62,829 nt of DNA from Burkholderiales bacterium 70-64 (lineage in GTDB: Bacteria; Pseudomonadota; Gammaproteobacteria; Burkholderiales; Burkholderiaceae_E): positions 1 through 62,829 of the forward strand of contig MKUQ01000033.1 of NCBI GenBank assembly GCA_001898645.1. Reading direction: 5' to 3'. The notes under the pieces are model-generated. The model was not told where the DNA came from. It searched no databases and saw only the letters and a list, made by a program, of their open reading frames with translations. The position numbers and the translations under genes are program-made. This document shows positions 10,826 to 24,937 of this stretch, in pieces; the first letter of the stretch is position 1, and each line of letters begins with the position of its first letter.

Positions 10826-12288
10826 TAGGGAAATCGCAATGGGGTCTCCTTGATGGTGACCCATTGCCATTGCGTGAACTCTTCCCAATTGGCCGGGCCG
10901 CCGATGCGGCTGCCATTGCCCGATGCGCCGCGCCCGCCATAGGGCACCGTTGCATCGCTGTGGATGGTCTGATCGTTGATGTGCACCAGGCCGGTCTGCA
11001 ATTGGTTGCCGATGGCCATGGCGCGGCCGACGGATTTCGAGAGGATGCCCGCCGACAGGCCGTATTCGGTCTGGTTGGCCATGGCAATTGCTTCTTCGTC
11101 CGTATCGAAGGGGGTGATGGCGGCAACGGGACCGAAGATCTCCTTGTCGAAAGCAGGCATGCCTGCCTCGACGCCACTCAACACCGTCGGCCGATAGAAC
11201 AGGTCTTCATGCGTGCCGCCGGCATGCAGGGTTGCACCGGCAGCCAAGGTGTCCTGCACGATCTGGTGTATCTGCTGCAGTTGCCGATGGTTGATGATGG
11301 GACCCATGCCGACTTCCGGGTCCATGGGGTCGCCGACGCGCAGGCGCCGGGCCTTTTCCTTCAGCCGTTCGGTCAATGCCGGAACGATTTTCCGTTGTAC
11401 CAGGATGCGTCCCGACGCCATGCATACCTGGCCCTGGTGCAGCCAGGCGGCAAAGGCGGCATTGGAGGCAGCCAGATCCAGATCGGCATCTTCCAGGATC
11501 ATCAAGGTATTCTTGCCGCCCAGTTCGAGCGATACCTTCTTGAGGTGCTCGCCACAGGCTGCGGCCACCTTGCGTCCGGCTGCGGTCGATCCCGTGAATG
11601 CCACCATGCTGATGAGGGGGTCGGTGCAGACTGCCGCGCCAGCCGGGGCGTCACCCGGCAGGATATGCAATACGCCCGGCGGCAGGCCGGCTTCTTCGAA
11701 CAGACGCGCAATCATCAGGCCGCCGCAAATGGCGGTTTGGTGATCGGGCTTGACGATGACGGCATTGCCGGTTGCCAGCGCAGGGGCGATGGCACGCATG
11801 GAGAGGATCAGCGGGAAATTGAAGGGAGAGATGATGCCGACCACGCCATGCGGCATGCGGCGCGCATAGCTCAGGCGCCCCGGATTGCTGGGCAGCAGGA
11901 TCCCCGGCGATTCGGTGAGCATGGCTGCCGCGTAATTCAGGCAGTTGGTCGATGAGCGCAGTTCGCCTTCTCCCTTGGCGCGCAGGCCACCGCTTTCGCG
12001 CATGATCCATTCGGTCATCTCGGTGCGGTGTTGTTCGATCAGATTGATCGCACGGCGGAAGATCGCCGACTTCTCCTCGATCGGCACTGCCGCCCAGGCA
12101 GGCTGCGCCGCCTTGGCGATCTGCGCAGCCCGTGTCACGTCATCCGGTGCGGCAATCCCGGTTTGTGCCAGCACATTGCCGGTTGCCTTTTCGATGACGT
12201 CCTGACTGCCGCCTGCGCCGTGGGTCCATTCTCCGCTGAAGATCCTGCCGTTCCAGCGTGCGGCCTCGCTCATCAATCCTGCATGCAT
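10822..12288 (-). CDS. aldehyde dehydrogenase, benzaldehyde dehydrogenase-like
   Basis: This NAD(P)-dependent aldehyde dehydrogenase should oxidise an aldehyde to the carboxylic acid. At 488 residues it shows the family set: PFNFPLILSMR, VAFTGSTAAGRKVA (cofactor site), LELGGKN (general-base Glu) and GQVCMASGR (catalytic Cys). The C-terminal WEEFTQWQWVTI recalls XylC-type benzaldehyde dehydrogenases, so an aromatic aldehyde is the likely substrate. An earlier ATG at 12339 overlaps the upstream stop, but ATG 12288 has a strong GGAAGGA site 6 nt before it and is preferred. It is the last gene of the island operon and is placed to oxidise an aldehyde released by the thiolase-fold/DUF35 pairs. Confidence 0.9.
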   Translation of the reverse strand: MHAGLMSEAARWNGRIFSGEWTHGAGGSQDVIEKATGNVLAQTGIAAPDDVTRAAQIAKAAQPAWAAVPIEEKSAIFRRAINLIEQHRTEMTEWIMRESGGLRAKGEGELRSSTNCLNYAAAMLTESPGILLPSNPGRLSYARRMPHGVVGIISPFNFPLILSMRAIAPALATGNAVIVKPDHQTAICGGLMIARLFEEAGLPPGVLHILPGDAPAGAAVCTDPLISMVAFTGSTAAGRKVAAACGEHLKKVSLELGGKNTLMILEDADLDLAASNAAFAAWLHQGQVCMASGRILVQRKIVPALTERLKEKARRLRVGDPMDPEVGMGPIINHRQLQQIHQIVQDTLAAGATLHAGGTHEDLFYRPTVLSGVEAGMPAFDKEIFGPVAAITPFDTDEEAIAMANQTEYGLSAGILSKSVGRAMAIGNQLQTGLVHINDQTIHSDATVPYGGRGASGNGSRIGGPANWEEFTQWQWVTIKETPLRFPY

Positions 12289-12335
12289 TGCCGATCCTTC
12301 CTTTATCCGGGGAGCTGCTTCCAGAACGCCCCTCT

Positions 12336-13466
12336 TCATGCGGCGAACCGCTCGAGATGATGCTCGGCGTCGCCGAGTCGTTGCGCGATCATGGTCAGGC
12401 GACGGAACGCATGACTGATCATCATTTCATCGGACATCCCCATGGCGCCCTGCATTTGCACGGTTTCCTGGCTGCTGCGGCGACACGCATCGCCGATCCG
12501 GATCTTGGCAGCGGATGCCAGCCGGCGTCGTTCTTCCGGCCCGACGCCCGCATCCAGTCTTGCGCAGACAAGGCAGACCATGGAGTACGCCTGCTCGAGG
12601 TCGATGAACAGCTCCACCATGCGATGCTGCAATGCCTGGAAACCGCCGATCGGCTCACCGAACTGCTTGCGGGTCTTCAGGTATTCCAGGGTGGCCTGGT
12701 AGGCGAGGCGCAGCACGCCCACGGCTTCCGCACACAGCACGGCCGTGGCACGATCCGTCACTTCTTCCATCAGTGCCAGGCCCTCGCCGGCCTGGCCAAG
12801 CAGGGCATCACCCGACACGACTACCTGGTCGAACTCGATGTCGGCCGCGGACAGGCCATCTGCCGTGCTGTAACCGCGCAGCCTGACTCCCGGTGCGTCA
12901 GCGGCGACCAGAAACAGGCTGATGCCTTGTGCATCGTCAGGATTGCCGCCAGCGCGGGCAGCGACGACCAGCAGGTCGGCGCAGGCACCATGCAACACCA
13001 CCCGCTTTTCCCCCTGCAGCAGCCAGCCTCCATTCCTTGCGGTTGCCGTGGTCGAGCAGTGTGCGAGATCGTAGCGTGCATCGGCTTCCTGCTGGGCAAA
13101 GGCTACGCGGCACTCGCCGGTGGCAATCCGGGGCAGCCATTGCTGTTGTTGTTCGGGCGTGCCGCCGCGCATCAGGAACGGAGCACCCAAGGCAACGGTG
13201 GAGAAGAACGGTTCGATCACCAGCGCTTCGCCCAGGACTTCCATGATCGCCATCAGATCCACCAGCCTGCCATCGAAGCCGCCGTACTTTTCCGGCAGGG
13301 GAAGCGCCAGCAGGCCAAGCTCGGCCAGCGCCTGCCAGACCGCGTCGCTGCAGCCCTGCCCGGAGGTGATGATGCGATTGCGCGCGGCGAAGTCGTATTC
13401 CTTTGCCAGGAAACGCCGCAACGCGCTGGCCATTTGCTCTTGTTCCGAGCTGTACTCAAAATCCAT
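12336..13466 (-). CDS. acyl-CoA dehydrogenase, small (PimD-like) subunit
   Basis: This flavoprotein of 376 residues resembles the small subunit of two-gene acyl-CoA dehydrogenases (PimD type). Visible features are PLPEKYGGF, GLSAADIEFDQVVV, LKTRKQFGEPIGGFQALQHRMVE and the C-terminal MQGAMGMSDEMMISHAFRR. With the next-upstream gene it probably forms a heteromeric enzyme that introduces an alpha,beta double bond into an acyl-CoA. ATG 13466 has a GAGGAA site; the longer reading to 13508 overlaps the upstream gene. The sequence is visibly less GC-rich than the chromosomal genes around the island. Confidence 0.88.
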   Translation of the reverse strand: MDFEYSSEQEQMASALRRFLAKEYDFAARNRIITSGQGCSDAVWQALAELGLLALPLPEKYGGFDGRLVDLMAIMEVLGEALVIEPFFSTVALGAPFLMRGGTPEQQQQWLPRIATGECRVAFAQQEADARYDLAHCSTTATARNGGWLLQGEKRVVLHGACADLLVVAARAGGNPDDAQGISLFLVAADAPGVRLRGYSTADGLSAADIEFDQVVVSGDALLGQAGEGLALMEEVTDRATAVLCAEAVGVLRLAYQATLEYLKTRKQFGEPIGGFQALQHRMVELFIDLEQAYSMVCLVCARLDAGVGPEERRRLASAAKIRIGDACRRSSQETVQMQGAMGMSDEMMISHAFRRLTMIAQRLGDAEHHLERFAA

Positions 13467-13504
13467 GGCGTTCCTCTTCGGCCGGGCACAATCCGGCCAT
13501 GCCA

Positions 13505-14692
13505 TCACAGTCCGAGGCGCATCTTGGCAATGATGTTGCGCTGCACTTCATCGGTACCGCCGGCAATGGTGAGCTTGCGCAGATTGAAGTAGCGTGGCGC
13601 CAGTGCTGCCGTCAGGCTGTCATGTGCGTCGATCTCGCCTCCCTGCGGCATGCCGCGCTGGCCGTGCGGGCCGGCTGCTTGCAGCATCAGTTCGGACAGT
13701 TGCTGCTGGATCGCCGTGCCCTTGATCTTCAGCAGGGAGACTTCCGCCCCGGGGGGCTGCCCGCTGCGCACCATGCGGTCGAGGTAGCGCAGGTTGGTGA
13801 TTTCCAGCGCCATCAGTTCGATCTCGACGCGGCTCAGGCGATCACGGAAACGCGGATCTTCCATCAGGGAGCGGCCCCGTGTGATCTGCCGCCCTGCCAT
13901 GTCCTTGAGCCTGGCCAGCTGCCGCTTGGAGGCGCCGATCCTGCCGGCACTCAGGCGCTCGTAGTTCAGCAGGTACTTGGCAACCTCCCAGCCCTGGCCT
14001 TCCTCGTGCACCAGGTTGGCAACCGGCACCTTGACCTCATCGAGGAACACTTCGTTGACCTCGTGGCTGCCATCCATCAGGATCACCGGCCGCACGGTGA
14101 TGCCCGGGGTTTGCATGTCGATCAGCAGGAACGAGATGCCTTCCTGTTTCTTTCCGGCCTGCGGATCCGTGCGCACCAGGCAGAACATCCAGTTGGCCCA
14201 GTGGGCCTGGGTGGTCCAGATCTTGTGCCCGGTGACGATGTAGTGATCGCCTTCGCGCACAGCACGGGTCTGTAGCGCTGCCAGGTCCGAGCCGGCCGCC
14301 GGTTCGGAGTATCCCTGGCACCAGAAATCCTCGCCGCTGTAGATGCGCGGCAGGAACCGCCGCCTTTGCTCCGGCGTGCCGAAGGCGATCAGGACCGGTG
14401 CGCAGAACATCAGCGAGAGACCCGGCAGCTGGGGGGCGCCCGCATGGCTGCATTCTTCTTCGAAGATATAGCGCTGCACGGCATCCCAGCCCGTGCCGCC
14501 CCACTCGACCGGCCAGTGCGGGGCAATCCAGCCCTTGTCGGCCAGAATGCGGTGCCAGCGCATCACCTCTTCCTTTTCCAGGTGGAGGTAGCTCGCCACC
14601 TTGTCCTTCAGGTCTGCCGGTAGATTGGCTTGCAGCCACCGCCGCACGTCGTCCCGAAATGCCAGTTGTTCAGGAGAGTATTGCAGGTCCAT
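13505..14692 (-). CDS. acyl-CoA dehydrogenase, large (PimC-like) subunit
   Basis: This 395-residue acyl-CoA dehydrogenase resembles PimC large subunits. Motifs are YIFEEECSHAGAP, DFWCQGYSEPAAGSDLA, TGHKIWTTQAHWANWMF, DGSHEVNEVFLDEVKVP and the C-terminal AGGTDEVQRNIIAKM. The usual catalytic Glu of the YEGT motif in medium-chain enzymes is Gly here (AGGT), as in other two-subunit systems, so the base may come from elsewhere. The ATG has GAGGAATGACGG before it. It follows the ligase by 3 nt and precedes the small subunit, so both are probably co-translated. Electrons would go to ETF. Confidence 0.9.
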   Translation of the reverse strand: MDLQYSPEQLAFRDDVRRWLQANLPADLKDKVASYLHLEKEEVMRWHRILADKGWIAPHWPVEWGGTGWDAVQRYIFEEECSHAGAPQLPGLSLMFCAPVLIAFGTPEQRRRFLPRIYSGEDFWCQGYSEPAAGSDLAALQTRAVREGDHYIVTGHKIWTTQAHWANWMFCLVRTDPQAGKKQEGISFLLIDMQTPGITVRPVILMDGSHEVNEVFLDEVKVPVANLVHEEGQGWEVAKYLLNYERLSAGRIGASKRQLARLKDMAGRQITRGRSLMEDPRFRDRLSRVEIELMALEITNLRYLDRMVRSGQPPGAEVSLLKIKGTAIQQQLSELMLQAAGPHGQRGMPQGGEIDAHDSLTAALAPRYFNLRKLTIAGGTDEVQRNIIAKMRLGL

Positions 14693-14695
14693 CCG

Positions 14696-16228
14696 TCATT
14701 CCTCGGGGACGGTGTGAAAGGATTCCCGCAGCGCATATTTCAATACCTTGCCGGAGCTGTTGCGCGGAAGGGATGGCAGGAAGCGGACATGCTTGGGCTT
14801 CTTGTAGCTGGCAATGCGCTCCTTGCAGTGGGCAACGATCTGTTCCGCCGTGAGGGTTGCACCCGGCATCAATTCGATGAAGGCAGCCACGGCTTCACCG
14901 AACATGGGATCGGGCACACCGACGACCGCCACGTCATGGACTGCGGGGAGTTCCCGGATCGTAGCCTCGACTTCCTTGGAGTAGATGTTGTAGGCGCCCG
15001 ATAGCACCATGTCCTTCTTGCGATCGACGATGTACAGGTACCCGTCTTCATCGAAGCGCCCCATGTCGCCGGTTCTCAGCCAGCCGTCCTGCAGGGCGTC
15101 CGCGGTTGCCTGCGAATTGTTGAAGTACGCCCGCATGGTGATGTAGCGTCCCGGCGGCCCGGTGCGCACCAGGATTTCGCCGGATTCGCCGGTGACGACC
15201 GGGTGGCCCTGGTCATCCACCAGCTTGACCTCGATCCCGGGGTTGATCCGGCCCACCGAGGCCGGTTTCTCGAACTGGTCCCTCGGGCCCAGGCTGGTGA
15301 TGGGGCCAAGCTCGGTCATGGCAAAGAAGGAATACAGCTGCAATTGCGGCAGGGACTTTCGCAACCGCTGCTTCAGCTCGACCGGGAAGGTCTCTCCGGT
15401 GACCGCGGCGATACGCAGGCTGGCAAAGCGTTCGGGCTGCGATTCGATGAGCGGCAACAGCATGCGGCCAACGGTCGGCACCATGTTGAGCAGGGTGATT
15501 CCTTCATCCTCGATCAGGCGTACCGTTTCTTCCGGCTCGAAATGGCGGACGAAAACGATGCTCACGCCCAGGCAAATCACGTTCATCAGACGCGAAAACG
15601 CCGAGCGGTGCGCCAGCGGCGTGGTGGTCAATACCCGGTCCTCGGTGGTGAGGCCCCACTGCTGCGCATTGAGAAAACCGTTGGCAACGATGAAGTTGCT
15701 CTGGGTGATGATGGCACCCTTGGGCTTGCCCGTGGTCCCGGAGGTGTAGGAGATCATGCAGTCGTCGAAATCGACTGGTATTTCCGGCAGCGTTGCTGCA
15801 TCTTCCGAACGACATTCGTCATAGGCATGCTCCTGTGCATCCTGTGCACCATCGACACAGATGCGTACCGCACCACCCAGATCGGCCTTTTCCAGGGTCG
15901 GCCGGGTCTCGTTCTCGAAAATCACGACCTTGGGCTCGGCATCCGAGAACACGTAGCTGACTTCGTTCGGAGATAGCTTGGGATTGGGCGTCACCGCGAT
16001 CGCCCCCGCCTTGACCGCGGCCATGAAGGCCACCGGAAAGTCGACGCGGTTATGGAGAAAGATGACGACGCGGTCGCCCGTGGCTACCCCGAGGCGTCGC
16101 AGCATGCCGGCGAGCTGCGTGGATTGGCGGTCGAGCTCGCCGAAGCTCAGGCTGCGGCCTTCGCAGCGCACCGCTTCACGATCCGGGGTTGCACGCGCAA
16201 AGGCGGAAAGGAAATGGGCGAGCTTCAT
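14696..16228 (-). CDS. acyl-CoA ligase (AMP-forming), cassette A
   Basis: This ANL-family enzyme of 510 residues should activate a carboxylic acid to its CoA thioester using ATP. Motifs in order are P-loop YTSGTTGKPKGA (about 168), TELGPITS, then GRFDEDGYLYIVDRKKDMVLSGAYNIYSKEVE and the C-terminal SSGKVLKYALR with the catalytic Lys. The substrate cannot be read from the sequence. It is paralogous to the ligase at 19928-21451. Its ATG overlaps the DUF35 stop (ATGA). The thiolase, DUF35, ligase order matches ipfD-ipfE-ipfF of ibuprofen degraders. Confidence 0.9.
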   Translation of the reverse strand: MKLAHFLSAFARATPDREAVRCEGRSLSFGELDRQSTQLAGMLRRLGVATGDRVVIFLHNRVDFPVAFMAAVKAGAIAVTPNPKLSPNEVSYVFSDAEPKVVIFENETRPTLEKADLGGAVRICVDGAQDAQEHAYDECRSEDAATLPEIPVDFDDCMISYTSGTTGKPKGAIITQSNFIVANGFLNAQQWGLTTEDRVLTTTPLAHRSAFSRLMNVICLGVSIVFVRHFEPEETVRLIEDEGITLLNMVPTVGRMLLPLIESQPERFASLRIAAVTGETFPVELKQRLRKSLPQLQLYSFFAMTELGPITSLGPRDQFEKPASVGRINPGIEVKLVDDQGHPVVTGESGEILVRTGPPGRYITMRAYFNNSQATADALQDGWLRTGDMGRFDEDGYLYIVDRKKDMVLSGAYNIYSKEVEATIRELPAVHDVAVVGVPDPMFGEAVAAFIELMPGATLTAEQIVAHCKERIASYKKPKHVRFLPSLPRNSSGKVLKYALRESFHTVPEE

Positions 16229-16641
16229 GCTGGCACGAAAGCCGGATAGGCCAGCTCATCCGTCAATCTCTCCCAGTACAGCTTGACTGCCATGCCGATC
16301 CTGACGTCTTCCGGCTTGACCTGATACAGGTTGCACAGGATGCGCACCCCTTCCTCCAGGTCGACCAGGGCACACAGGTAGGGAACCCGCGCTTCGTGCC
16401 CCGGCCAGGCATTCAAGGTGTTGGTAAAGCTGTAGACCGTCCCTTTGCCGGATGCTTCGCGCCATTCGAGATTGCGCCTGCCGGTTACCAGGCTGATGGG
16501 GCGCGGGAAGAACTGCGGTTCTCCGCTGTCGACGCAATATTGAATCAACAGGCGTCCTTCGCTGGTTGCCCGCCAGAAAGGCGTGGTGTCCATGTAGGCA
16601 TTGGGCCTCGGCAAGGGACGGGAAATGTTTGCCGCGCTCAT
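16225..16641 (-). CDS. DUF35 OB-fold protein, cassette A
   Basis: This 138-residue Zn-ribbon/OB-fold protein of the DUF35 family is the usual partner of thiolase-fold enzymes such as BbsA with BbsB, ChsH2-DUF35 with Ltp2, and ipfE with ipfD. The N-terminal PTxFW-like motif (DTTPFWRATSEGRLLIQYC) and the OB-fold core (GTVYSFTNTLNAWPGHEARVPYLCALVDLEEG) are clear. The zinc ribbon is degenerate: only one Cys remains where four are usual (YCVDSGEPQFFPRP). The stop overlaps the ligase start, and its start overlaps the thiolase stop. Confidence 0.87.
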   Translation of the reverse strand: MSAANISRPLPRPNAYMDTTPFWRATSEGRLLIQYCVDSGEPQFFPRPISLVTGRRNLEWREASGKGTVYSFTNTLNAWPGHEARVPYLCALVDLEEGVRILCNLYQVKPEDVRIGMAVKLYWERLTDELAYPAFVPA

Positions 16642-17816
16642 GGCTGCTCCAGAATCATGACGTTGGATACACCCCAGTTGCGACCATAGGGGATCACGCC
16701 AATCCCGGTGACCATGCAGTTGCGCGGGTCACTGACCTGCCGCTCTCCGGCTTCTTCGAACATCTGCCGCACCCCTTCGACCAGGTTGAGGCCGCCCCCG
16801 GCGAGGCCGGGCTGGCCTGCCGAGATCTGTCCGCCTGAGGTGTTCAGCGGCAGGGTGCCGCGATACGAGAGATCGGTATCCAGCACGAACTGCGCGCCCT
16901 TGCCCTTCTCGCAGAAGCCGATGTCCTCCAGCGTGATGATCAGGGCAATCAGGAAGTCATCGTAGGGCATGATCATGCGCACATCCGGCGGCCTCATGCC
17001 GGCCTGGCGCAGCGCCTTGGGGCCTGCCAGGCTGAAGCCGGAAACCGTGATGTCCGGCTGCCGTGCAGCACCATTGAAGTTGCTGATCTCGCCATAGCCG
17101 ATCGGATGGATCATCTTGCGCGCGCCCAGCCGCCTTGCATTTTCGGTGGATGTCACCAGGACGCCATTGGCGCCATCACAGACCATCACCGAATCCAGCA
17201 CTCGGATCGGTGTCGAGACGTATTTGGAGCTCAGGTAATCCTCTTCCGTCAATGGTTTGCGCAGCTTCTCGCATCCGTTCGGATTCATCAGCGCATGGTT
17301 GCGCTGGGTGACCGCCAGCTTGGCCAGGGCGCGCTCATCCAGGCCATACTGGTGGCGGTAGCGCTCGGACAACAGCCCGAATGCACCTACCGGGCCCTTG
17401 AGCCCCACCGGATACATGAACTCGTGACGCTGTGCCCCTTGCTCCGGTGTCTTGCCGGAGGACTGTGCATCCGATGCCAGCACCAGGACGGTTTCGCACA
17501 TGCCGTCGCGAATGGCTGCGGCGGCCCGGGCAATCCCGCCGATGCTCGATGCGCCGCCCAGACCGTTAAGCTGCATCCAGGAGGGCGACAGACCCAGCAT
17601 TTCGCACATGTAGACCCCCCAGAAGGGGTTGCCCGTCTCGCTCATGGTTTCGGAAATTGCCAGGCCATCGATCTCGCGCTTGTCGATGCCGGTCTGCACC
17701 AGGATCTGCTCCATCACTTGGGCGGCCAGCTCGTAGGAGCTGCGGCCGCCGCGCAGGACGACGGGCGTTTCACCGTAGCCGATGATGGCGATATCTTTGC
17801 GCTTGTTCGTGCTCAT
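16638..17816 (-). CDS. thiolase-fold protein without nucleophilic Cys, cassette A (probable acyl-CoA aldolase/lyase)
   Basis: This 392-residue protein belongs to the SCP2/SCPx-like non-decarboxylating thiolase group. Counting back from the end of the active-site helix, the position of the nucleophilic Cys is Gly88 (GGASS, 87-91), and the usual GHP motif reads GQP (334-336). A PYDDF motif (284-288) aligns by eye with the catalytic-Tyr region of steroid aldolase Ltp2. Ordinary thiolysis through an acyl-Cys therefore looks unlikely, and retro-aldol or deacylase chemistry with the DUF35 partner is more likely. This is inference from motifs. The gene is 4 nt from TctC and overlaps DUF35. Confidence 0.83.
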   Translation of the reverse strand: MSTNKRKDIAIIGYGETPVVLRGGRSSYELAAQVMEQILVQTGIDKREIDGLAISETMSETGNPFWGVYMCEMLGLSPSWMQLNGLGGASSIGGIARAAAAIRDGMCETVLVLASDAQSSGKTPEQGAQRHEFMYPVGLKGPVGAFGLLSERYRHQYGLDERALAKLAVTQRNHALMNPNGCEKLRKPLTEEDYLSSKYVSTPIRVLDSVMVCDGANGVLVTSTENARRLGARKMIHPIGYGEISNFNGAARQPDITVSGFSLAGPKALRQAGMRPPDVRMIMPYDDFLIALIITLEDIGFCEKGKGAQFVLDTDLSYRGTLPLNTSGGQISAGQPGLAGGGLNLVEGVRQMFEEAGERQVSDPRNCMVTGIGVIPYGRNWGVSNVMILEQP

Positions 17817-17820
17817 GCTT

Positions 17821-18840
17821 TCAATCGACCTTGATGCCGCGTTCCTTGATGATCTTGCCCCAGCGATCTATCTCGGAATGAATATGCCTGGTGAATTGCT
17901 CGGAGCTGCCGCCCACCACGCTCATGCCGGCAGATGCCAGACGTTCGCGTACGTCTGGCATGGCCAGCACCGCATTGATTTCGTGATTCAGCTTGTTGAC
18001 GATGCCGGCTGGGGTGCCGGCACGCATGACCAGACCGAACCAGGTCACGACCACGGCGTCCTTGTAGCCCTGCTCGGCGAATGTCGGCACATCGGCCAAT
18101 ACCGCCGCGCGCTCGCTGGGGCCTATGGCGAGTGCACGCAGGCGGCCGCTGGTGATGTAACCGAGAATGGATGGCGACATGGTGATCGAGCCGACATCCA
18201 CATGGCCGCCCACAACGGCTGTGGTGAGGGCGGCGACTCCTTTGTGCGGCACGTGAATCAACGATGTGCCGGATACGTATTGGAACAGCTCGACCATCAG
18301 GTGATTGCCCGTTGCCACCCCTGGTGAACCATAGCTGATGGTACCTGGCTCGGCCTTGGCCTTCTTCACCAGATCGTCGAGGGTCTTGATGTCGGATGTG
18401 GCGCGCACCAGCAATACCGGCGGCAGGTTGGTCAGGTGGATCAACGGCTGGAAATCGCGCCTTGTATCGTAGGGAATGTTTGCAAACAGCGCAGGGTTGG
18501 TTGCATGAGGGACGGCCACCAGCAGCATGGTGTAGCCATCTGCTGGCGACATCAGGAGATGCTGCGATGCGATCCGTTCGTTGGCCCCCGGCTTGGCTTC
18601 TACCAGCACGGGCTGGCCAAGGCGCTCGGACAGCTTGTTTGCCACGGTACGGGCCAGAAAGTCGACCGATCCGCCCGTTTCGTAGGCAAGGACGATACGC
18701 AGCGGCTTGTTGGGGAAATCTTGTGAAAAGGCGGAAGGGAAGAAAAGCAGGCTGGCGATGCAGAAGAGACAGAACGAAAGGATCCTGCGTGCTGTCAGCC
18801 TCTGCGGCAAGGCAGCCATCCGGACTTGCACGACGAACAT
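17821..18840 (-). CDS. TctC/Bug-family periplasmic solute-binding protein, copy 1
   Basis: This is a tripartite tricarboxylate transporter receptor (Bug) of 339 residues. A signal peptide is visible (LSFCLFCIASLLFFPSAFSQ), then FPNKPLRIVLAYETGGSVDFLAR, PADGYTMLLV and HVPHKGVAALTTAVVGGHVD, all typical. It should bind a carboxylate ligand, possibly the island substrate. No TctA or TctB membrane gene is in the window, so this is an orphan receptor. The ATG at 18840 has GAGGAAAC before it; a shorter start at 18819 is possible. It lies 4 nt upstream of the cassette A thiolase. Confidence 0.92.
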   Translation of the reverse strand: MFVVQVRMAALPQRLTARRILSFCLFCIASLLFFPSAFSQDFPNKPLRIVLAYETGGSVDFLARTVANKLSERLGQPVLVEAKPGANERIASQHLLMSPADGYTMLLVAVPHATNPALFANIPYDTRRDFQPLIHLTNLPPVLLVRATSDIKTLDDLVKKAKAEPGTISYGSPGVATGNHLMVELFQYVSGTSLIHVPHKGVAALTTAVVGGHVDVGSITMSPSILGYITSGRLRALAIGPSERAAVLADVPTFAEQGYKDAVVVTWFGLVMRAGTPAGIVNKLNHEINAVLAMPDVRERLASAGMSVVGGSSEQFTRHIHSEIDRWGKIIKERGIKVD

Positions 18841-18895
18841 GATTCGTTTCCTCTACGTGAAAGTTGGCGCGGCAAAATGGGCGTGTATCGGTCCA

Positions 18896-18915
18896 GTCGC
18901 CGGAGTGCCGGCGAC
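18896..18915 (-). other. intercistronic hairpin between the two tctC genes
   Basis: GTCGCCGG (18896-18903) and CCGGCGAC (18908-18915) form a perfect 8-bp stem with a 4-nt loop in the 94-bp gap between the two TctC genes, the widest gap inside the operon. No T-run follows, so it is more likely an mRNA stability or partial termination element than a full terminator. Confidence 0.5.
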
Positions 18916-18934
18916 AGTCCGGCAGGGGGCTCGC

Positions 18935-19906
18935 TCATTCGAGCCTGATGTCGGCCGCCTCGATGACCGCTTTCCACTTCACGGTCTCGTCGATCTGCAG
19001 CGTCCGCAACTCTTCCGGCGTCGATCCCTGCGGATTGATGCCCAGGGCCTCCAGCCGCGACCGGAAAGCCGGATCCTGCAATCCCCGGTTGATCTCCCGG
19101 GACAGGCGCTCGACGATGTCCTTCGGCATGCCACCCGGCCCGTGAACCGCAAACCACGTCGCTGCATCGAAGTCGGGTACGCCGGACTCGCTCAGGGTCG
19201 GGACATTCGGCAGAGCCGTCGATCGCTCGCGCGTCGAAACCGCCAGCGCCTTCAGCTTGCCGGACTTGATGTGAGGCAGGACGGACGGACCGAAGTCGAT
19301 TGCAGCCTGGACCTGGCCACCGACCACGTCGATGATCGCCGGCGCGCTTCCCTTGTAGGCGACGTGAAGCATATCCATGCCGGTCTCCCGCTTCAGCATC
19401 TCCATGAAGATGTGCTGCGCCGTGCCGACGCCGGCCGAGCCGTAGGCCACCTTGCCCGGGTTGGCCTTCACGTACTTGACGAACTCCTGGAACGTATTGG
19501 AGGGAGAGCTCGCGGACACCACGAAGAAGCTCGGCAACTTTGCCACTTGCGTGATCGGCGTGAAATCCTTGTTCGCATCGTAGGGCATCGCCTTCATCAG
19601 GATGGGATTCACCGAATACAGCGCCTGCGATCCGATCAGGATGGTGTAGCCGTCCGGCGCCGACCGGGCAACCTGGGTCGCTCCGATAATGCCGGAGTTG
19701 CCGGGGCGATTTTCGACGATGACCGGTTGATGCCAGGCATCCTGCAGATGCTTTCCGATCGATCTGGAGATCATGTCGGTCGCACCGCCCGGCGGGTATG
19801 GCGCAATGATTTGAATCGGCTTGTTCGGATAGCCCTGGCTGAAGACAGGCGGGCTGGCTGCCAAAGCGATGCAAGCCACCGTGAGAACCAACGAAAGACG
19901 CCGCAT
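18935..19906 (-). CDS. TctC/Bug-family periplasmic solute-binding protein, copy 2
   Basis: This second Bug receptor (323 residues from ATG 19906) has signal peptide LSLVLTVACIALAASPPVFSQ and the family motifs YPNKPIQIIAPYPPGGATDM, APDGYTILIGS and HVAYKGSAPAIIDVVGGQV. Two ATGs are close together; the one at 19906 has GGAGGG 6 nt upstream, while the one at 19912 directly abuts it, so 19906 is preferred. It is more typical of the family than copy 1: its ligand pocket has the usual PYPPGG where copy 1 has AYETGG. The two may therefore bind different acids. It lies at the end of cassette B. Confidence 0.92.
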   Translation of the reverse strand: MRRLSLVLTVACIALAASPPVFSQGYPNKPIQIIAPYPPGGATDMISRSIGKHLQDAWHQPVIVENRPGNSGIIGATQVARSAPDGYTILIGSQALYSVNPILMKAMPYDANKDFTPITQVAKLPSFFVVSASSPSNTFQEFVKYVKANPGKVAYGSAGVGTAQHIFMEMLKRETGMDMLHVAYKGSAPAIIDVVGGQVQAAIDFGPSVLPHIKSGKLKALAVSTRERSTALPNVPTLSESGVPDFDAATWFAVHGPGGMPKDIVERLSREINRGLQDPAFRSRLEALGINPQGSTPEELRTLQIDETVKWKAVIEAADIRLE

Positions 19907-19927
19907 GATCATCCCTCCTCCCTTTGG

Positions 19928-21451
19928 TCACGACTTGGAAAAAGAACTCGCCAGGATCTTCTTCATCACCTTGCCGGTATGGTTCTCTGGCAGCTCTTCC
20001 ACGAATCTCACGTACTTCGGTTTCTTGTAGCTTGCGATCTGCTCTCTGCACCAACTTATCAGCTCGTTTTCCGTCACCGTTGCGCCTGCATGGCGCACGA
20101 CGAATGCTGCGACGGCCTCTCCGAAAACTTCGTCCGGCACGCCCACGACCGCCACCCTCGCCACATCCGGATGCGCAGCGATGACGTTCTCCACCTCCCT
20201 CGAATAGATGTTGTATCCGCCGGAAAGGATCATGTCCTTCTTCCGGTCGACGATGTACAGGTAGCCGTCTTCATCGAAACGGCCCATGTCCCCGGTCACG
20301 AACCAGCCGTTCCTCAGGCTCTCGGCGTTCGCCTCGGGACGATTCAGATAGCCCTTCATCGTGAGGAAGCGGCCCGGTTCGCCGGATCTCACCCGGATTT
20401 CACCGACCTCACCGGTCGGCACCGGATTCCCGCGCTCGTCGACGAGCTTCACTTCCAGGCCCGGCAGGACGCGACCCACCGATGCGGCGTGCGAGATCTG
20501 CTCCTCGGGCCTGAGCAGGGCGACGACGCCTGCCTCGGTCATCGAATAGAACGAGAAGAGGCTGATCCCGGGAAGGGCTGCCAGAAACCTCGCCTTGAGC
20601 TCGACGGGAAACGCCTCGCCGGTGGCCAATACCCGTTTGAGGTTGCGAAAATTCTCGGGTGCGCGCTCGATTTCCGGAAGCAACAGCCTTGCCACCGTGG
20701 GCACTATCCCGAGCACGGTGATGGATCGTTCCCGAAGGGTGGAAGACAGCTCCATCGGATCGAATTTCGGCAGCACGACCAGCGTGGCGCCGAGCACCAG
20801 GAGATTTCCCATTCGAGCGAACGCGATCCGATGGGCCAGAGGCGTGGTGATCAGGATTCGATCGTCACCGCTGAATCCCCAATACAGCGCATTCAGGTAC
20901 CCGTTCATCACGATGTAGTTCGATTGCGTGAGAACGGCACCCTTGGGCTTGCCCGTGGTTCCCGACGTGTAGCTGATCATGCATTCGTCTTGCTCGATCG
21001 GGACTTCCGGCAGAAGGGCGTCGATGTTCCGGATCATCGCTTCATAGGAATGCCCGGGCCTGTCGGGGCTGCCGCCGAGCCAGATCCGTGGAATGCCGAT
21101 TCGATCGGCCTTGTCGAAGCCCTCTGCGAAGCTCGCGTCGACGAACGCTGCGACGGCCCTGGTGTCCTCCAACTGAAAGGCGACTTCCGGCGTGGCCAGG
21201 CGCATGTTGATCGGAACGGCGACCGCCCCGGCCTTGACGATGCCGAAGAAGCACACTGCGAACTCCAGACAGTTCGGCAGGTACAGCGCGACCCGATCCC
21301 CGGGCTTGATCCCCAGCGACGCGAGCGAAGCGCCCACGCGATCGCTGAAGCGATGCAACTCTCCGAAGGTCAACTCCTCGTTCTGGCAGATGAGGGCCAC
21401 TTTCGAGCCGATTCGCTGAGCATGCGCAGCCAGAAAACTCGAGAATCTCAC
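19928..21451 (-). CDS. acyl-CoA ligase (AMP-forming), cassette B
   Basis: This ANL-family acyl-CoA ligase of 507 residues is read from GTG 21451, which has a GGAGG site 5 nt before it and aligns with the start of the cassette A ligase. The longer reading frame to 21526 would overlap the DUF35 gene and adds unrelated residues. Motifs are YTSGTTGKPKGA, SMTEAGVVAL, GRFDEDGYLYIVDRKKDMILSGGYNIYSREVE and the C-terminal HTGKVMKK with the catalytic Lys. It is clearly paralogous to the 14696-16228 ligase but diverges most around residues 110-150, so the substrates may differ. Confidence 0.9.
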   Translation of the reverse strand: MRFSSFLAAHAQRIGSKVALICQNEELTFGELHRFSDRVGASLASLGIKPGDRVALYLPNCLEFAVCFFGIVKAGAVAVPINMRLATPEVAFQLEDTRAVAAFVDASFAEGFDKADRIGIPRIWLGGSPDRPGHSYEAMIRNIDALLPEVPIEQDECMISYTSGTTGKPKGAVLTQSNYIVMNGYLNALYWGFSGDDRILITTPLAHRIAFARMGNLLVLGATLVVLPKFDPMELSSTLRERSITVLGIVPTVARLLLPEIERAPENFRNLKRVLATGEAFPVELKARFLAALPGISLFSFYSMTEAGVVALLRPEEQISHAASVGRVLPGLEVKLVDERGNPVPTGEVGEIRVRSGEPGRFLTMKGYLNRPEANAESLRNGWFVTGDMGRFDEDGYLYIVDRKKDMILSGGYNIYSREVENVIAAHPDVARVAVVGVPDEVFGEAVAAFVVRHAGATVTENELISWCREQIASYKKPKYVRFVEELPENHTGKVMKKILASSFSKS

Positions 21452-21479
21452 GACGCCCTCCGCATCGTTGACTTCGGCG

Positions 21480-21896
21480 CTATCGATCCGGCAGCAATTC
21501 GAAGGCGGGATACAGGAACCCGTCACCGAGCTCTTCCCAAGCCACCCTGACCCTCCGGCCGACCTTCAATTCCGCCTCGCCGATATTGATCAGGTTGCAC
21601 AGCATGCGCACGCCTTCGTTCAGCAGGACGAGGCCACAGACATAAGGGACACGATGCTCGTGGCCCGGCCATGCGGATGTCGTGACGGTCCACGAATAGA
21701 TGGAGCCGAAACCCGACACCTCGACCCAGGACAGATTCTTCGACCCGGTGTAGACGCTGACCGGCCGCGGCGGATGCTGCAGCCGCTTCGTGTCATCGCA
21801 CCGCTGAACGAGCAGCCTCCCGTTCCGGGCGGCATCCCAGATCGGCTGCGTATGCATGTAGCTGTTCGCTACAGGTTTCACCCGCTTCGCTTCCAT
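21480..21896 (-). CDS. DUF35 OB-fold protein, cassette B
   Basis: This 138-residue DUF35 protein partners the adjacent thiolase-fold enzyme. It has QPIWDAARNGRLLVQRC and the OB-fold core GSIYSWTVTTSAWPGHEHRVPYVCGLV. As in cassette A, the zinc ribbon has lost its cysteines (one remains, RCDDTKRLQHPPRP). ATG 21896 lies 8 nt after GGAGG; the ATG at 21902 is too close to it. The stop is 28 nt before the ligase start. Confidence 0.87.
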   Translation of the reverse strand: MEAKRVKPVANSYMHTQPIWDAARNGRLLVQRCDDTKRLQHPPRPVSVYTGSKNLSWVEVSGFGSIYSWTVTTSAWPGHEHRVPYVCGLVLLNEGVRMLCNLINIGEAELKVGRRVRVAWEELGDGFLYPAFELLPDR

Positions 21897-21908
21897 GACC
21901 ATGCCCTC

Positions 21909-23078
21909 CTACTGCTCGAGCACGAGCACGGCAGAACTGCTCCAGTTCCTGCCGATCGGAATCACCCCGATCCCCGTCACGACGGCGTTGCGAGTCTTGC
22001 CGACCTGGCGCGACCCGGCCTCTCCGAACATCTGTCGAATCGCTTCGACCAGGTTGAGGCCGCCCCCGGCCAGGCCCGGCTGCCCGGCCGATATCTGTCC
22101 CCCGCCGGTGTTCAGCGGGAGATCACCATCGAATGACAGATTCGTTTCCTTGATGAAGCGGGAGCCCTCTCCGTCGCTGCAAAAGCCGATCTGCTCCATT
22201 TGCAGGAGGATGGCGATCAGGAAATCGTCGTAGGGATGGAACATGCAGACATCGCGGGTCTTCAATCGCGCCGAGGCGAGCGCTTTCGGCCCCGCCACCT
22301 TGAAGCCCGTCTCCGTGATCTCTGCCGCCGGATTGAATGCCTCGAAGTTCGTGATCTCGGCGTAGGCTGTCGGAACCACGAACTTGGCGATCCCTTTGGA
22401 TCGAATATTCTTCTTCGTCGTCAACAGGATGCCGTTGGCACCGTCGCAAACCATCACGCTATCCAGGATCCGCACCGGATCGGATACGAACCTGGATGCC
22501 AGATAGTCCTGCTCCGAAAGAGGAACCTGGAGCTTGTCGCATGCGTTCGGATTCAGGAGCGCGTGCTTTCGTTGCGTAACAGCCAGCTTGGCGAGCGCCA
22601 ACGGATCCAGCTGGTGCAAGTGCTGGTAGCGCCGGGTCAGCAGGCCGAACGCGCCGACAGGCCCTTTCAGTCCGATGGGGTACTGGAACTCGTGGCGTTG
22701 CCCGCCTTGCTCCGATTGGTTCTTGCTCGATTGCGAATCGGCCGATAGCACCAGCACCGTCGAACAGAAGCCCGCTTCGATTGCGGCGATGGCGCGCGCA
22801 ACGCCGCCGACGCTCGAGACACCGCCTAGCGCCAGGCATTCCAGCCAGGTCGGCGTCAGCCCGAGCATGTCGGCCATGTAGGCCGGCCAGAAAGGATTGG
22901 CTGTCTCGCTTATCGTCTCGGCAACAGCCAACCCGTCGATCTCCGAACGGTCGAAACCGGTCTGCCGAAGGATCTCGTCGAAGACGTCCGCAGCGAGCTC
23001 GTAGGCGCTGCGGCCTCCTCGCAGCGTGATCTTCGTCTCGCCGTAGCCGACGATGGCTACGTTTCTGCTTTCATTCAT
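21909..23078 (-). CDS. thiolase-fold protein without nucleophilic Cys, cassette B
   Basis: This 389-residue paralogue of the cassette A protein is co-linear with it over its whole length. The nucleophile position is Gly86 (GGVSS, 85-89), GHP is replaced by GQP in GGGQISAGQPGLAGG, and PYDDF is conserved. The same inference applies: an acyl-CoA retro-aldolase or deacylase working with DUF35, rather than a classical thiolase. That both copies keep these changes and have intact reading frames argues for selection and not decay. The ECH gene ends 9 nt upstream. Confidence 0.83.
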   Translation of the reverse strand: MNESRNVAIVGYGETKITLRGGRSAYELAADVFDEILRQTGFDRSEIDGLAVAETISETANPFWPAYMADMLGLTPTWLECLALGGVSSVGGVARAIAAIEAGFCSTVLVLSADSQSSKNQSEQGGQRHEFQYPIGLKGPVGAFGLLTRRYQHLHQLDPLALAKLAVTQRKHALLNPNACDKLQVPLSEQDYLASRFVSDPVRILDSVMVCDGANGILLTTKKNIRSKGIAKFVVPTAYAEITNFEAFNPAAEITETGFKVAGPKALASARLKTRDVCMFHPYDDFLIAILLQMEQIGFCSDGEGSRFIKETNLSFDGDLPLNTGGGQISAGQPGLAGGGLNLVEAIRQMFGEAGSRQVGKTRNAVVTGIGVIPIGRNWSSSAVLVLEQ

Positions 23079-23087
23079 CGGCTTTTC

Positions 23088-23900
23088 TCAACGTCCTTTG
23101 AAGGAGGGTGAACGTTTCTCCTTGAACGCCGCCAGTCCCTCTTGCCTGTCCTGGGAAAAGCTCAGCGCAAAGGACAAATCTCCCTCCTGCAGCCAGGCAT
23201 TCCGGGCCGACAGATCCGCCGATCGATCGATCAGCGCCTTCGAGAACATGACCGGCAAAGGGGCGTTGCGCACGATTTCGGCCGCCAGCCGTCGTGCCGC
23301 TTCCAGGCTGGCCCCGGCGTCGGCGAGCTCCGCTGCGATGCCCATCTCGAACGCTTTCGTGCCGTCGAAGCGTGCCCCCGTCCAGATCAGGCGCTTGGCC
23401 TGTGCCCTGCCCACGACTCGTGCAAGGGTGGCGGTTCCGCCGCCCCCGGGCAGCATCCCCAGCTTCACTTCGGTCAGCCCGAAGATCGCATCCTTCGAAG
23501 CCACGATCAGATCGCACATGAGCGCCAGCTCGAATCCGCCGCCGAGTGCGTAGCCGTCGACCGCAGCGATCAGCGGCTTGGTGAAATTCGGCAGGGATGC
23601 GTAGAGGCGGGAGATCCTTCTCGAGGTCAGGCGTGCCCGCCATTGCTCGAAAGGGCCGTTTTCGTCGACCCTGAACGCTTCCGTATCCACGCCGGCGCAG
23701 AAAACCCCTTGTGCTCCGTGCAGCAGCACCGCACGGACGCCGGGATCGGACTCGGCCCGCTCCAGGACAGCCAGTAGTTCGGATGCGGTCTGTTCGCGCA
23801 ATGCATTGCGCTTGGCCGGCCGGTTGATCGCGATTTCGAGCCAGGCTTCTTCGCGGCCGACGCGCAAATCCTGCAGCTGCAGGTTCTCGAAGTGAGACAT
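23088..23900 (-). CDS. enoyl-CoA hydratase/isomerase family protein
   Basis: This 270-residue crotonase-fold enzyme keeps both catalytic acids of true hydratases: Glu124 in GGGFELAL and Glu144 in GLTEVKLGMLPGGGG. It should hydrate the enoyl-CoA made by the dehydrogenase pair to a 3-hydroxyacyl-CoA, the substrate form needed for retro-aldol cleavage. It is the first gene of the leftward operon; GGGAGG lies about 12 nt before the ATG. The operator and promoter candidates are 44-90 bp upstream. Confidence 0.88.
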   Translation of the reverse strand: MSHFENLQLQDLRVGREEAWLEIAINRPAKRNALREQTASELLAVLERAESDPGVRAVLLHGAQGVFCAGVDTEAFRVDENGPFEQWRARLTSRRISRLYASLPNFTKPLIAAVDGYALGGGFELALMCDLIVASKDAIFGLTEVKLGMLPGGGGTATLARVVGRAQAKRLIWTGARFDGTKAFEMGIAAELADAGASLEAARRLAAEIVRNAPLPVMFSKALIDRSADLSARNAWLQEGDLSFALSFSQDRQEGLAAFKEKRSPSFKGR

Positions 23901-23943
23901 CGAACGAACGCCCCTCCCAAGCCGATCGGTCTGTGCCTATGAT

Positions 23944-23981
23944 TAGCACATTCATGCGACAAGAGTAGCACGTTTGTGCGA
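23944..23981. promoter_or_regulatory. tandem operator candidate for the TetR regulator
   Basis: TAGCACATTCATGCGA (23944-23959) and TAGCACGTTTGTGCGA (23966-23981) match in 13 of 16 positions and are spaced 22 bp apart, two helical turns, so both face the same side of the DNA. Each has a GCA...TGC dyad. They lie in the divergent region between the hydratase gene and the tetR gene. Confidence 0.7.
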
Positions 23982-23989
23982 ATAGACAA
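23962..23989 (-). promoter_or_regulatory. candidate promoter of the island operon
   Basis: On the minus strand, TTGTCT (23989-23984) and TACTCT (23967-23962) are separated by 16 nt. One copy of the operator lies in the spacer and the other just downstream, which would let a repressor block the polymerase. This is inference from consensus only. Confidence 0.4.
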
Positions 23990-24209
23990 GCGTTTTCTCG
24001 GCGGGGATGGAGATGGGGTTTTCGGCCGGCTGCGCGCCTGGCGACTGGCGCGCGGACACGGTGCTCGACTCGCATGGCCGGCCTGGCAATGAGCCCATCG
24101 ACAATGCGATATGATGGAGTCGATCAATGTCCTCAGTGCAGGATGTCAGGATTCCAGTGAGCGGACCCGACAGGCACGACAACGCTCACTCGCCAACAAG
24201 ACACCACGT

Positions 24210-24851
24210 ATGCAGAATCCATCGGCTGCCGCAGATGACAAGTCCAGGACGCGCAGATCCGGTCTCCCGGCAGCAGCCACGAAACGAGGATTATTGAAGC
24301 AGGATTATCTGCTGGGCGTGGTCTACGACCTGATCTCCGAGCACGGCATCGAGTCGCTCACGATGAGGAACGTGGCCGAACGCAGCAATGTGAGCACGGG
24401 CACCATCAACTATCATTTCAAGAACAAAGAGAATCTGCTCATCGCCGCGCTCGAGGAGGCATACAGCCTGCCGAAGGATTGGGCCAACTACAAAGGCTCC
24501 TCCGAAGCGCAGCTTCGAAGAATCGCCAATTCCTACATCCTGCGCGCCAAGAGCGACCGCTGGTGGTTCTTCTGGATCAATTATCTTGCCTACAGCACGC
24601 GCCATCCCAAGATGCAGATCCGCCAAAGCGAGCGGTACGACAAGCAGCTTCGCTTCTGGGCGCAGCTCATCACGGATGGCCAGGAGAAAGGCGAGTTTCG
24701 CACCGATCTCGATCCGGTCGAGACCGCGCGGCGACTGCTCACGACGGTCCATGGCCTCCTGACGTTGCAGCTCATGAAGAGCGACGCCGAAATCCGCGTA
24801 TACGCTCGCGAGCAGATCAGCAGCGCCATCGATGCGCTCGTCTCCCGTTAG
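24210..24851 (+). CDS. TetR-family transcriptional regulator of the island
   Basis: This 213-residue regulator is divergent from the operon. The N-terminal helix-turn-helix is at about residues 25-75 (GIESLTMRNVAERSNVSTGTINYHFKNKENLL); the ligand-binding half is all-alpha and Trp-rich (SDRWWFFWINYLAYSTRHP). It probably represses the hydratase operon until an acyl-CoA or acid effector binds. The reading frame is open back to ATG 24111, but the extra 33 codons look non-coding and neither start has a ribosome site; 24210 is chosen for family length. Confidence 0.88.
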   Translation: MQNPSAAADDKSRTRRSGLPAAATKRGLLKQDYLLGVVYDLISEHGIESLTMRNVAERSNVSTGTINYHFKNKENLLIAALEEAYSLPKDWANYKGSSEAQLRRIANSYILRAKSDRWWFFWINYLAYSTRHPKMQIRQSERYDKQLRFWAQLITDGQEKGEFRTDLDPVETARRLLTTVHGLLTLQLMKSDAEIRVYAREQISSAIDALVSR

Positions 24852-24937
24852 GGTGAGCAGGCCCTAGCCCGAGTTCCCCACGCGCCGTTGTCGCGCCGGC
24901 TCGAGGAACGCCTTCTCGGGATGAGTGGGGAGGGCGG

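Follow-up and report, generated by a model that had tools for sequence, protein, structure and literature searches.

Two thiolase-fold/DUF35 pairs on an inserted island of a Burkholderiales bacterium are probable acyl-CoA retro-aldolases

In a 62,829-nucleotide stretch of DNA from Burkholderiales bacterium 70-64 (contig MKUQ01000033.1; the whole stretch is called the window here), two thiolase-fold subunits, T1 (16638..17816, 392 residues) and T2 (21909..23078, 389 residues), are each followed by a DUF35 partner, D1 (16225..16641) and D2 (21480..21902), all on the minus strand. We consider it quite probable that each pair is a retro-aldolase, which would split a 3-hydroxyacyl-coenzyme A (CoA), releasing an aldehyde together with acetyl-CoA or a different short acyl-CoA. 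A sequence-only reading had already proposed a retro-aldolase instead of a thiolase, and a check of the open reading frames of the window found both pairs where that reading had placed them. The proposal is supported by the loss of the thiolase nucleophile, by the closeness of both subunits to known aldolase complexes, by the tree and, in part, by a contrast in neighbouring genes for short-chain dehydrogenases/reductases (SDRs).

Active site and nearest relatives

Both pairs score far over the Pfam cut-offs for Thiolase_C_1 and OB_ChsH2_C, and a thiolase fold with an adjoining DUF35 gene of the oligonucleotide/oligosaccharide-binding (OB) fold is found by Pfam (PF22691, PF01796), by predicted models of T1 and D1 and by Foldseek. 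D1 and D2 are separate proteins of 138-140 residues. The nearest named NCBIfam model of the larger subunits, PRK06158 'acetyl-CoA acetyltransferase', is matched by T1 and T2 with 257.8 and 227.6 bits, under its curated cut-off of 421 bits. When the two were aligned with solved relatives, the column of the Cys of the Pyrococcus thiolase 7yvy held Gly88 in T1 and Gly86 in T2, just as the sequence-only reading had counted, and neither copy has the nucleophilic Cys of thiolases. GHP is GQP in both, again as claimed (Gln335; T1 numbering is used throughout), and with the His of this motif that of H(E/D)xF is lost as well. The PYDDF motif, described earlier as conserved, is indeed present in both copies (YDDF, 285-288), but this description hides the third residue of YDxF, which is His in Ltp2, an essential Cys in Sal and Asp in T1 and T2.

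Two aldolase complexes serve as comparison. One is the bile-acid aldolase Sal-Shy(DUF35) of Comamonas testosteroni (9myr), which acts on 3-hydroxyacyl-CoA (CoA esters with a 22-hydroxylated C5 side chain) and releases an aldehyde according to the accessible text of PMC12329534; the other is the cholesterol side-chain aldolase Ltp2-ChsH2(DUF35) of Thermomonospora curvata (6ok1). The same text assigns the role of base to Tyr302 and of acid to Cys304 in Sal, with Gly89, Gln347 and Gln352 as supporting residues, and in Ltp2 the roles of base, acid and oxyanion residue to Tyr294, Tyr344 and His296 (PMC12329534). Sal residues Gly89, Tyr302, Asp303, Gln347 and Gln352 align to Gly88, Tyr285, Asp286, Gln330 and Gln335 of T1, which thus shares with Sal the Gly at the Cys position, the base Tyr, two Gln near the acid and the DUF35 partner. 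With Ltp2 it shares the fold, this Gly, the base Tyr of YDxF (Tyr294 as Tyr285) and the DUF35 partner. Neither acid is retained: the site of Cys304 in the YDCY motif of Sal is Asp287, whereas in Ltp2 Tyr344 corresponds to Gln335 and His296 of YDHF to Asp287. By these defining residues T1 and T2 stand outside both the Sal and the Ltp2 type, but they appear to work most like Sal.

Sal is also the nearest relative, by sequence of both copies and by fold of T1. It is the best match in the PDB to T1 (2.9e-54) and T2 (1.4e-50), and T1 and T2 are farther from Ltp2 by sequence and by tree. The nearest solved relative of D1 is the DUF35 of Sal-Shy, that of D2 is ChsH2 of the Ltp2 complex. Single chains of T1 and D1 were modelled. 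The T1 model (from a 20-row alignment; predicted local distance difference test score, pLDDT, 87.1; predicted template modelling score 0.91) was ranked by Foldseek closest to Sal (9myr, 1e-40), followed by 4u4e, thiolase 7yvy and Ltp2 (6ok1). For the D1 model (pLDDT 88.4), the best matches were DUF35 domains from the complexes of Sal and of Ltp2 (1.5e-12 and 1.6e-12), with the DUF35s of thiolase and acylase complexes at 5.7e-9 and weaker. The sequence-only reading had taken Ltp2/ChsH2 as its model; this holds for D2, but Sal is the better model for T1, T2 and D1, and the second catalytic Tyr of Ltp2 is a Gln here.

Conservation of these residues was counted in an alignment that left out open frames of less than 330 residues and identical proteins. 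An earlier count, in which Tyr285, Asp287 and Phe288 appeared invariant, was discarded since its rows had been picked by the motif, and was repeated on rows gathered by sequence and profile searches and picked on identity alone, irrespective of active-site residues. The 46 rows with 45% or more identity to T1, both window copies included and in 26 clusters at 90% identity, all have the Gly, YDDF with Asp287, and Gln335; the next row is 42.7% identical. Such uniformity in rows gathered without regard to these residues is more than chance. Ratios of nonsynonymous to synonymous substitution (dN/dS) of 0.10-0.20 against near relatives indicate purifying selection, so T1 and T2 are not decaying thiolases. 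Across the whole alignment, Gln335 pairs with Cys or Asp at position 287 in 61/61 rows, Tyr335 with His, Asn or Ala at 287 in 5/5 distinct proteins, and His335 in rows with the Tyr motif (Y-type) with Ser or Ala at 287 (5/5). The pattern suggests that the proton donor sits at either position 287 or position 335; with Gln at 335, Asp287 would be the natural candidate. A further Y-type group without the Cys, in which His335 goes with YDSF or YDAF and which includes the uncharacterised PDB entry 4u4e and proteins of L051, L052, L104 (1076-2242) and L023, may be another aldolase-like group.

We therefore propose, by analogy with Sal, that Tyr285 and Asp287 are probably the catalytic pair of a presumably non-steroid variant of the thiolase-fold/DUF35 aldolases. 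Tyr285 would accept the proton of the 3-hydroxyl group, for which Gly88 would leave space at the thiolase Cys site, and Asp287, at the site of Sal Cys304, would reprotonate the enolate, with Gln330 and Gln335 ordering it.

Clade and zinc sites

The tree was built from an alignment stripped of its motif columns (a partial BbsB and one duplicate row from pIBU218 were left out). In it, the 46 close rows formed a single clade (100/100), called YDDF here, and three H-type thiolase rows were separated from 71 Y-type rows (100/100). Adjoining the YDDF clade are nine YDDY rows, most of them from metagenome bins, archaeal and other. Six YDCY rows of the Sal type come after these and join this YDD group with support of 98/92. 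Ltp2-like rows group together with IpfD, apart from YDDF.

The partners of the clade differ from those of both solved aldolases. In Sal-Shy the DUF35 is fused to a MaoC hydratase and has a C3H1 zinc site, and ChsH2 has a C4 zinc site, whereas D1 and D2 are stand-alone proteins that have each kept one of four zinc Cys. DUF35 partners were recovered for 44 of the 46 close rows, with none of the four Cys in 13 and one in 31. By contrast, all eight recovered YDDY partners keep four; such YDDY proteins, with a DUF35 that retains all four Cys, were seen in archaeal (one bacterial) metagenome bins (L010-L015). Zinc-Cys loss thus tracks the YDDF clade, yet Cys have also gone from a YDNF-type partner, from a neighbour of YDAF type and, as judged by eye, from IpfE, and the loss seems to have happened more than once. 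The YDNF case is a thiolase-fold protein with Tyr at 335 and a DUF35 without zinc Cys (L004 16975-18490); its gene run also holds a YDDF pair. A zinc-free DUF35 would, in our proposal, shape the acyl pocket.

Neighbourhoods of the clade

We then compared genes within 8 kb of YDDF loci with those around two control sets. The 26 YDDF clusters came from 43 places, some with flanks shorter than 8 kb; stretches below 8 kb, matches that covered fewer than 300 columns or fell below 45% identity, a 50-kb plasmid stretch (L033) and a duplicate (L108) were excluded before clustering at 90%. A DUF35 gene lies beside all 26 clusters, a ligase beside 20, a hydratase beside 18, acyl-CoA dehydrogenases beside 16 and an aldehyde dehydrogenase (ALDH) beside 8, and no dehydrogenase of the FadB/PaaH type or thiolase of the FadA/PaaJ type was found at any (0/26 each). 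The search used genes of the window itself plus FadA, FadB, PaaH and PaaJ of E. coli as queries and may have overlooked divergent types.

For control 1 we took SCP2-thiolase loci of the Cys type. Ten YDDF-carrying genomes offered 26 such places, of which 20, from six of these genomes, were used and clustered to 17 loci (the residue is Cys, with Ser in two). For this comparison second YDDF copies and L103 were removed, leaving 22 loci. SDRs can act as 3-hydroxyacyl-CoA dehydrogenases. They were found at 4/22 YDDF loci versus 14/17 Cys-type loci (p = 9e-5), on the same strand at 4/22 versus 12/17 (p = 0.0025), and within 4 kb at 2/22 versus 13/17 (p = 3e-5). Because the loci are related to each other, these neighbourhood p-values are optimistic. 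Control 2 was made up of 20 of 105 classical-thiolase matches, around which the FadB/PaaH type was found in 3/20, compared with 0/26 for YDDF (p = 0.075).

Several results weigh against a retro-aldolase, or against parts of the case for it. The oxyanion residue Gln161 of Sal aligns to Pro142 of T1. Replacement of Sal Cys304 with Ala, Ser or His made activity undetectable, as described in the accessible text of PMC12329534, so Asp is no obvious drop-in at that site. In approximately unbiased (AU) tests, a grouping of YDD with the Ltp2-like rows was not rejected (p-AU 0.088), and one with H-type thiolases was rejected just weakly (p-AU 0.039); where YDD branches off with respect to Sal and Ltp2 is accordingly set aside. 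Template modelling (TM) scores of the T1 model fail to part aldolases from thiolases (TMt 0.92 for 7yvy, 0.84 for Sal), and the order of its Foldseek hits comes from the score that combines 3Di with sequence. Regarding the neighbourhoods, a DUF35 gene lies near 1/20 control-1 loci, so this set is not fully matched, and the SDR contrast with control 2 (4/26 versus 7/20, p = 0.17) is not significant. The FadB/PaaH type was missing around the Cys-type controls too (0/17). The earlier claim that the island lacks a 3-hydroxyacyl-CoA dehydrogenase and a classical thiolase stands insofar as neither FadB/PaaH nor FadA/PaaJ types were found within it, but with 0/17 near Cys-type loci and 3/20 near classical thiolases the absence of the dehydrogenase is uninformative, and we dropped it as evidence; the scarcity of SDRs is informative against one of the two controls. 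ALDH was not significantly enriched either (8/22 YDDF versus 3/17 Cys-type loci, p = 0.29), and enrichment was likewise dropped as an argument. An ALDH lies in the gene run of 6/23 YDDF loci, which makes it no general feature of them. Where the gene run holds hydratase, ligase and acyl-CoA dehydrogenase, an ALDH accompanies them at 6/11 loci. The cleanest such cassette, L081, reads ALDH, enoyl-CoA hydratase, thiolase-fold subunit, DUF35, ligase, receptor, two acyl-CoA dehydrogenases and TetR.

Alternative functions

Among other explanations, the one that fares best is a thiolase or hydrolase of 3-ketoacyl-CoA in which water or some residue other than the Cys serves as nucleophile, and we regard it as unlikely. 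The fold is thiolase-like, with TM-scores to true thiolases equally good; a hydratase and an acyl-CoA dehydrogenase pair would suit ordinary beta-oxidation too; and the function predicted for a relative on plasmid pJP4 is that of a beta-ketoadipyl-CoA thiolase, as the accessible text of PMC6449761 states. However, the Cys and both His, that of GHP and that of HDxF, are replaced, which is true of the pJP4 copy too, both subunits are closest to aldolase complexes, a search of the island found no 3-hydroxyacyl-CoA dehydrogenase, and the SDRs of Cys-type relatives are mostly missing. The thiolase-fold/DUF35 complex BbsAB (7pxp), the benzoylsuccinyl-CoA thiolase, likewise acts on an aryl acyl-CoA, but it retains HDAF and GHP and is a far weaker match.

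Since a retro-aldol reaction can also run in reverse and PhlC is structurally related, the pairs could also form C-C bonds in the synthetic direction, joining acetyl-CoA to an aldehyde or an acyl group by an aldol or Claisen-type reaction, or act as a C-acylase like PhlABC. We think this improbable: the genes around them, for transporter receptors, ligases, dehydrogenases and an ALDH, are those of catabolism, Pfam detected no HMG-synthase-like PhlA partner among the island genes, and PhlC ranked far under Sal. About equally improbable is a malonyl-CoA-type decarboxylase or a non-catalytic partner comparable to the trypanosome SCP2-thiolase-like protein (TbSLP), a structural relative that decarboxylated malonyl-CoA very slowly; Sal showed no such activity, both according to the accessible text of PMC12329534. 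A dead partner would not explain pocket residues common to all 46 close rows under purifying selection. A side-chain aldolase for bile-acid type steroids, suggested by Sal as nearest solved relative, is the least probable, as the YDDF rows form a separate clade, the hydratase is a stand-alone crotonase and not a Shy-like MaoC-DUF35 fusion, and the context is non-steroidal, with relatives on plasmids for degradation of 2,4-dichlorophenoxyacetic acid (2,4-D) (the genome was not searched for steroid-ring genes).

The island and a putative pathway

The two probable retro-aldolases belong to an operon on the minus strand, which runs from 23900 to 10822. It starts with a crotonase-fold enoyl-CoA hydratase (23088..23900), which aligns to the PaaF entry 4fzw_A and retains both motifs that bear the catalytic Glu residues. 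After T2 and D2 come acyl-CoA ligase 2 (AMP-binding; 19928..21526), whose listed GTG start overlaps D2, leaving the true start uncertain, and two receptors of the tripartite tricarboxylate transporter type (Bug/TctC, PF03401; receptor 2 at 18935..19912 and receptor 1 at 17821..18840). T1 and D1 are followed by acyl-CoA ligase 1 (AMP-binding; 14696..16228), a large PimC-like acyl-CoA dehydrogenase (13505..14692) and a small PimD-like one (12336..13508), both scoring under the NCBIfam cut-off, and finally the ALDH (10822..12339). A TetR-family regulator (24111..24851, plus strand) is transcribed divergently. The sequence-only reading had listed a ligase, a dehydrogenase pair and a hydratase; all were recovered, and the count is now two ligases, with both receptors and TetR added. 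It had called the ALDH benzaldehyde-type. The solved relatives of this enzyme do include 4-hydroxybenzaldehyde, benzaldehyde, salicylaldehyde and vanillin dehydrogenases, but it stays under the cut-off for all 25 NCBIfam models listed, succinic semialdehyde dehydrogenase being closest, hence benzaldehyde-type is a leaning and no identification.

From this gene set a pathway can be drawn up. The transporter receptors would import a carboxylate, which the ligase would convert to its CoA ester; the PimC/PimD-like pair would oxidise this to 2-enoyl-CoA, to which the hydratase would add water. The T/DUF35 pair would then cleave the C2-C3 bond, and the ALDH would oxidise the released aldehyde to a carboxylate two carbons shorter.

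The island (approximately 10826..24930) is an insertion and was acquired horizontally. The methyltransferase and cyclopropane-synthase-like genes flanking it are adjacent, with the island absent, in 14/14 congeners examined (17 were compared; the rnhA locus was recovered in 14, and three gave no rnhA match). GC content is 61-67% in 2-kb windows from 10 to 26 kb, compared with 68.6-76.4% in the remaining windows. The T-DUF35-ligase block occurs twice, as direct repeats 5.2-5.3 kb apart with a DNA identity of 72-75%. T1 and T2 are 62% identical, whereas T1 is closest to a foreign relative in L001 (82%), and T2 to a protein in L081/L064 (74-75%), a genome of the same genus as Variovorax beijingensis (L004). 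As each copy is nearer to a foreign relative than to its sister, the island joins two cassettes of different descent.

Close relatives of T1 and T2 occur in 2/74 genomes of the organism's own family, the source genome counted (threshold 1e-130), in 1/399 of an order sample, this being the source genome (1e-100), and in 2/370 of a class sample, namely the source genome and one YDCY case (1e-70). Carriers numbered 11/398 in the family of a Cupriavidus genome and 17/101 in the genus of a Variovorax genome (1e-100 each), both genomes having been picked as carriers; the best 4-5 candidates were scored per genome in the order, class and Cupriavidus-family samples. The YDDF clade was found in Variovorax, Cupriavidus, Bradyrhizobium and Bosea. 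Two more Cys-less relatives were seen in the source genome, one of the YDDY/Gln type (G000:C55:2594-3667, L024) and one of the YDAF/His type (G000:C26:10984-12087, L023).

Substrate and plasmid relatives

The substrate is probably an acid of the aryl- or alkyl-propionate/acrylate type, not a steroid. Hints at an aromatic or related acid are the solved 4-hydroxybenzaldehyde and benzaldehyde dehydrogenase relatives of the ALDH, a feruloyl-CoA synthetase entry among the relatives of ligase 1 (not its best match), UbiD/UbiX adjoining the Bosea YDDF copy, and tfdA adjoining the plasmid copies. Most other YDDF loci are accompanied by CaiB-type transferases and receptors, so the clade probably covers several substrates. 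A non-steroid precedent is the ibuprofen pathway of pIBU218, in which IpfDE is assigned a step that the accessible text of PMC9195938 describes as a retro-aldolase reaction. IpfDE (HRJ34_RS27705/27700, taken as IpfD/IpfE from gene order) is likewise a thiolase-fold/OB-fold pair next to an AMP-binding ligase and acts on a non-steroid aryl acyl-CoA, but it has YDAF and Tyr at 335, clusters with Ltp2 rather than YDDF, and its substrate is a ring dihydrodiol. On pIBU218 a second, Ltp2-like pair with YDHF and the second Tyr lies beside an enoyl-CoA hydratase and a CaiB-type transferase (L037 2939-4503). The Corynebacterium phd cluster was dropped as a further example of such a pair, PhdB being a dehydrogenase and PhdC a ketohydrolase according to the accessible text of PMC5479773.

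On IncP 2,4-D plasmids, tfdA or a TauD/TfdA gene is followed directly downstream by a cassette of ligase, YDDF thiolase-fold gene and DUF35 gene (L027 11539-15595 on pJP4; L031 11560-15595 on pDB1), and a plasmid of Cupriavidus oxalaticus X32 holds this cassette twice (L030 2491-6526 and 11539-15598). The pJP4 and pDB1 proteins (WP_011178401.1, WP_015061674.1) belong to the YDDF clade, with a zinc-less DUF35 and a ligase as in the island; they differ in being 48-49% identical, in lying beside tfdA, and in that no dehydrogenase pair was found in the stretch. For the pJP4 copy, a beta-ketoadipate ligase and a beta-ketoadipyl-CoA thiolase were proposed from COG assignment and context, as far as the accessible text of PMC6449761 goes. 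Because the gene lacks the nucleophilic Cys, this thiolase role in 2,4-D degradation is doubtful, and it is testable.

Concluding remarks

The new points would be the Tyr-Asp site, the zinc-free DUF35 and the setting in a mobile pathway that probably does not serve steroids. Where accessible, the Sal paper (PMC12329534) has no 'YDD' in its main text, and a literature search, with subscription papers mostly beyond its reach, returned no paper with both 'YDDF' and 'thiolase'. Whether YDDF amounts to a third catalytic solution (Tyr-Asp, compared with Tyr-Cys in Sal and Tyr-Tyr in Ltp2) with a zinc-less DUF35, and defines a mobile 'aldolytic beta-oxidation' of non-steroid acids in which two carbons are taken off via an aldehyde, is to us a nearly balanced question, with doubt slightly ahead. 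All five plasmid YDDF genes looked up are annotated 'thiolase family protein', which leads pathway models to assume a 3-ketoacyl intermediate step with thiolysis at a point where the product is probably an aldehyde. If our proposal is true, a mechanism known from steroid side chains and from the ibuprofen dihydrodiol would extend to general acid catabolism, the site of the proton donor, position 287 or 335, would follow a testable rule, and the pairs would be reversible aldolases acting on CoA esters, usable as biocatalysts.

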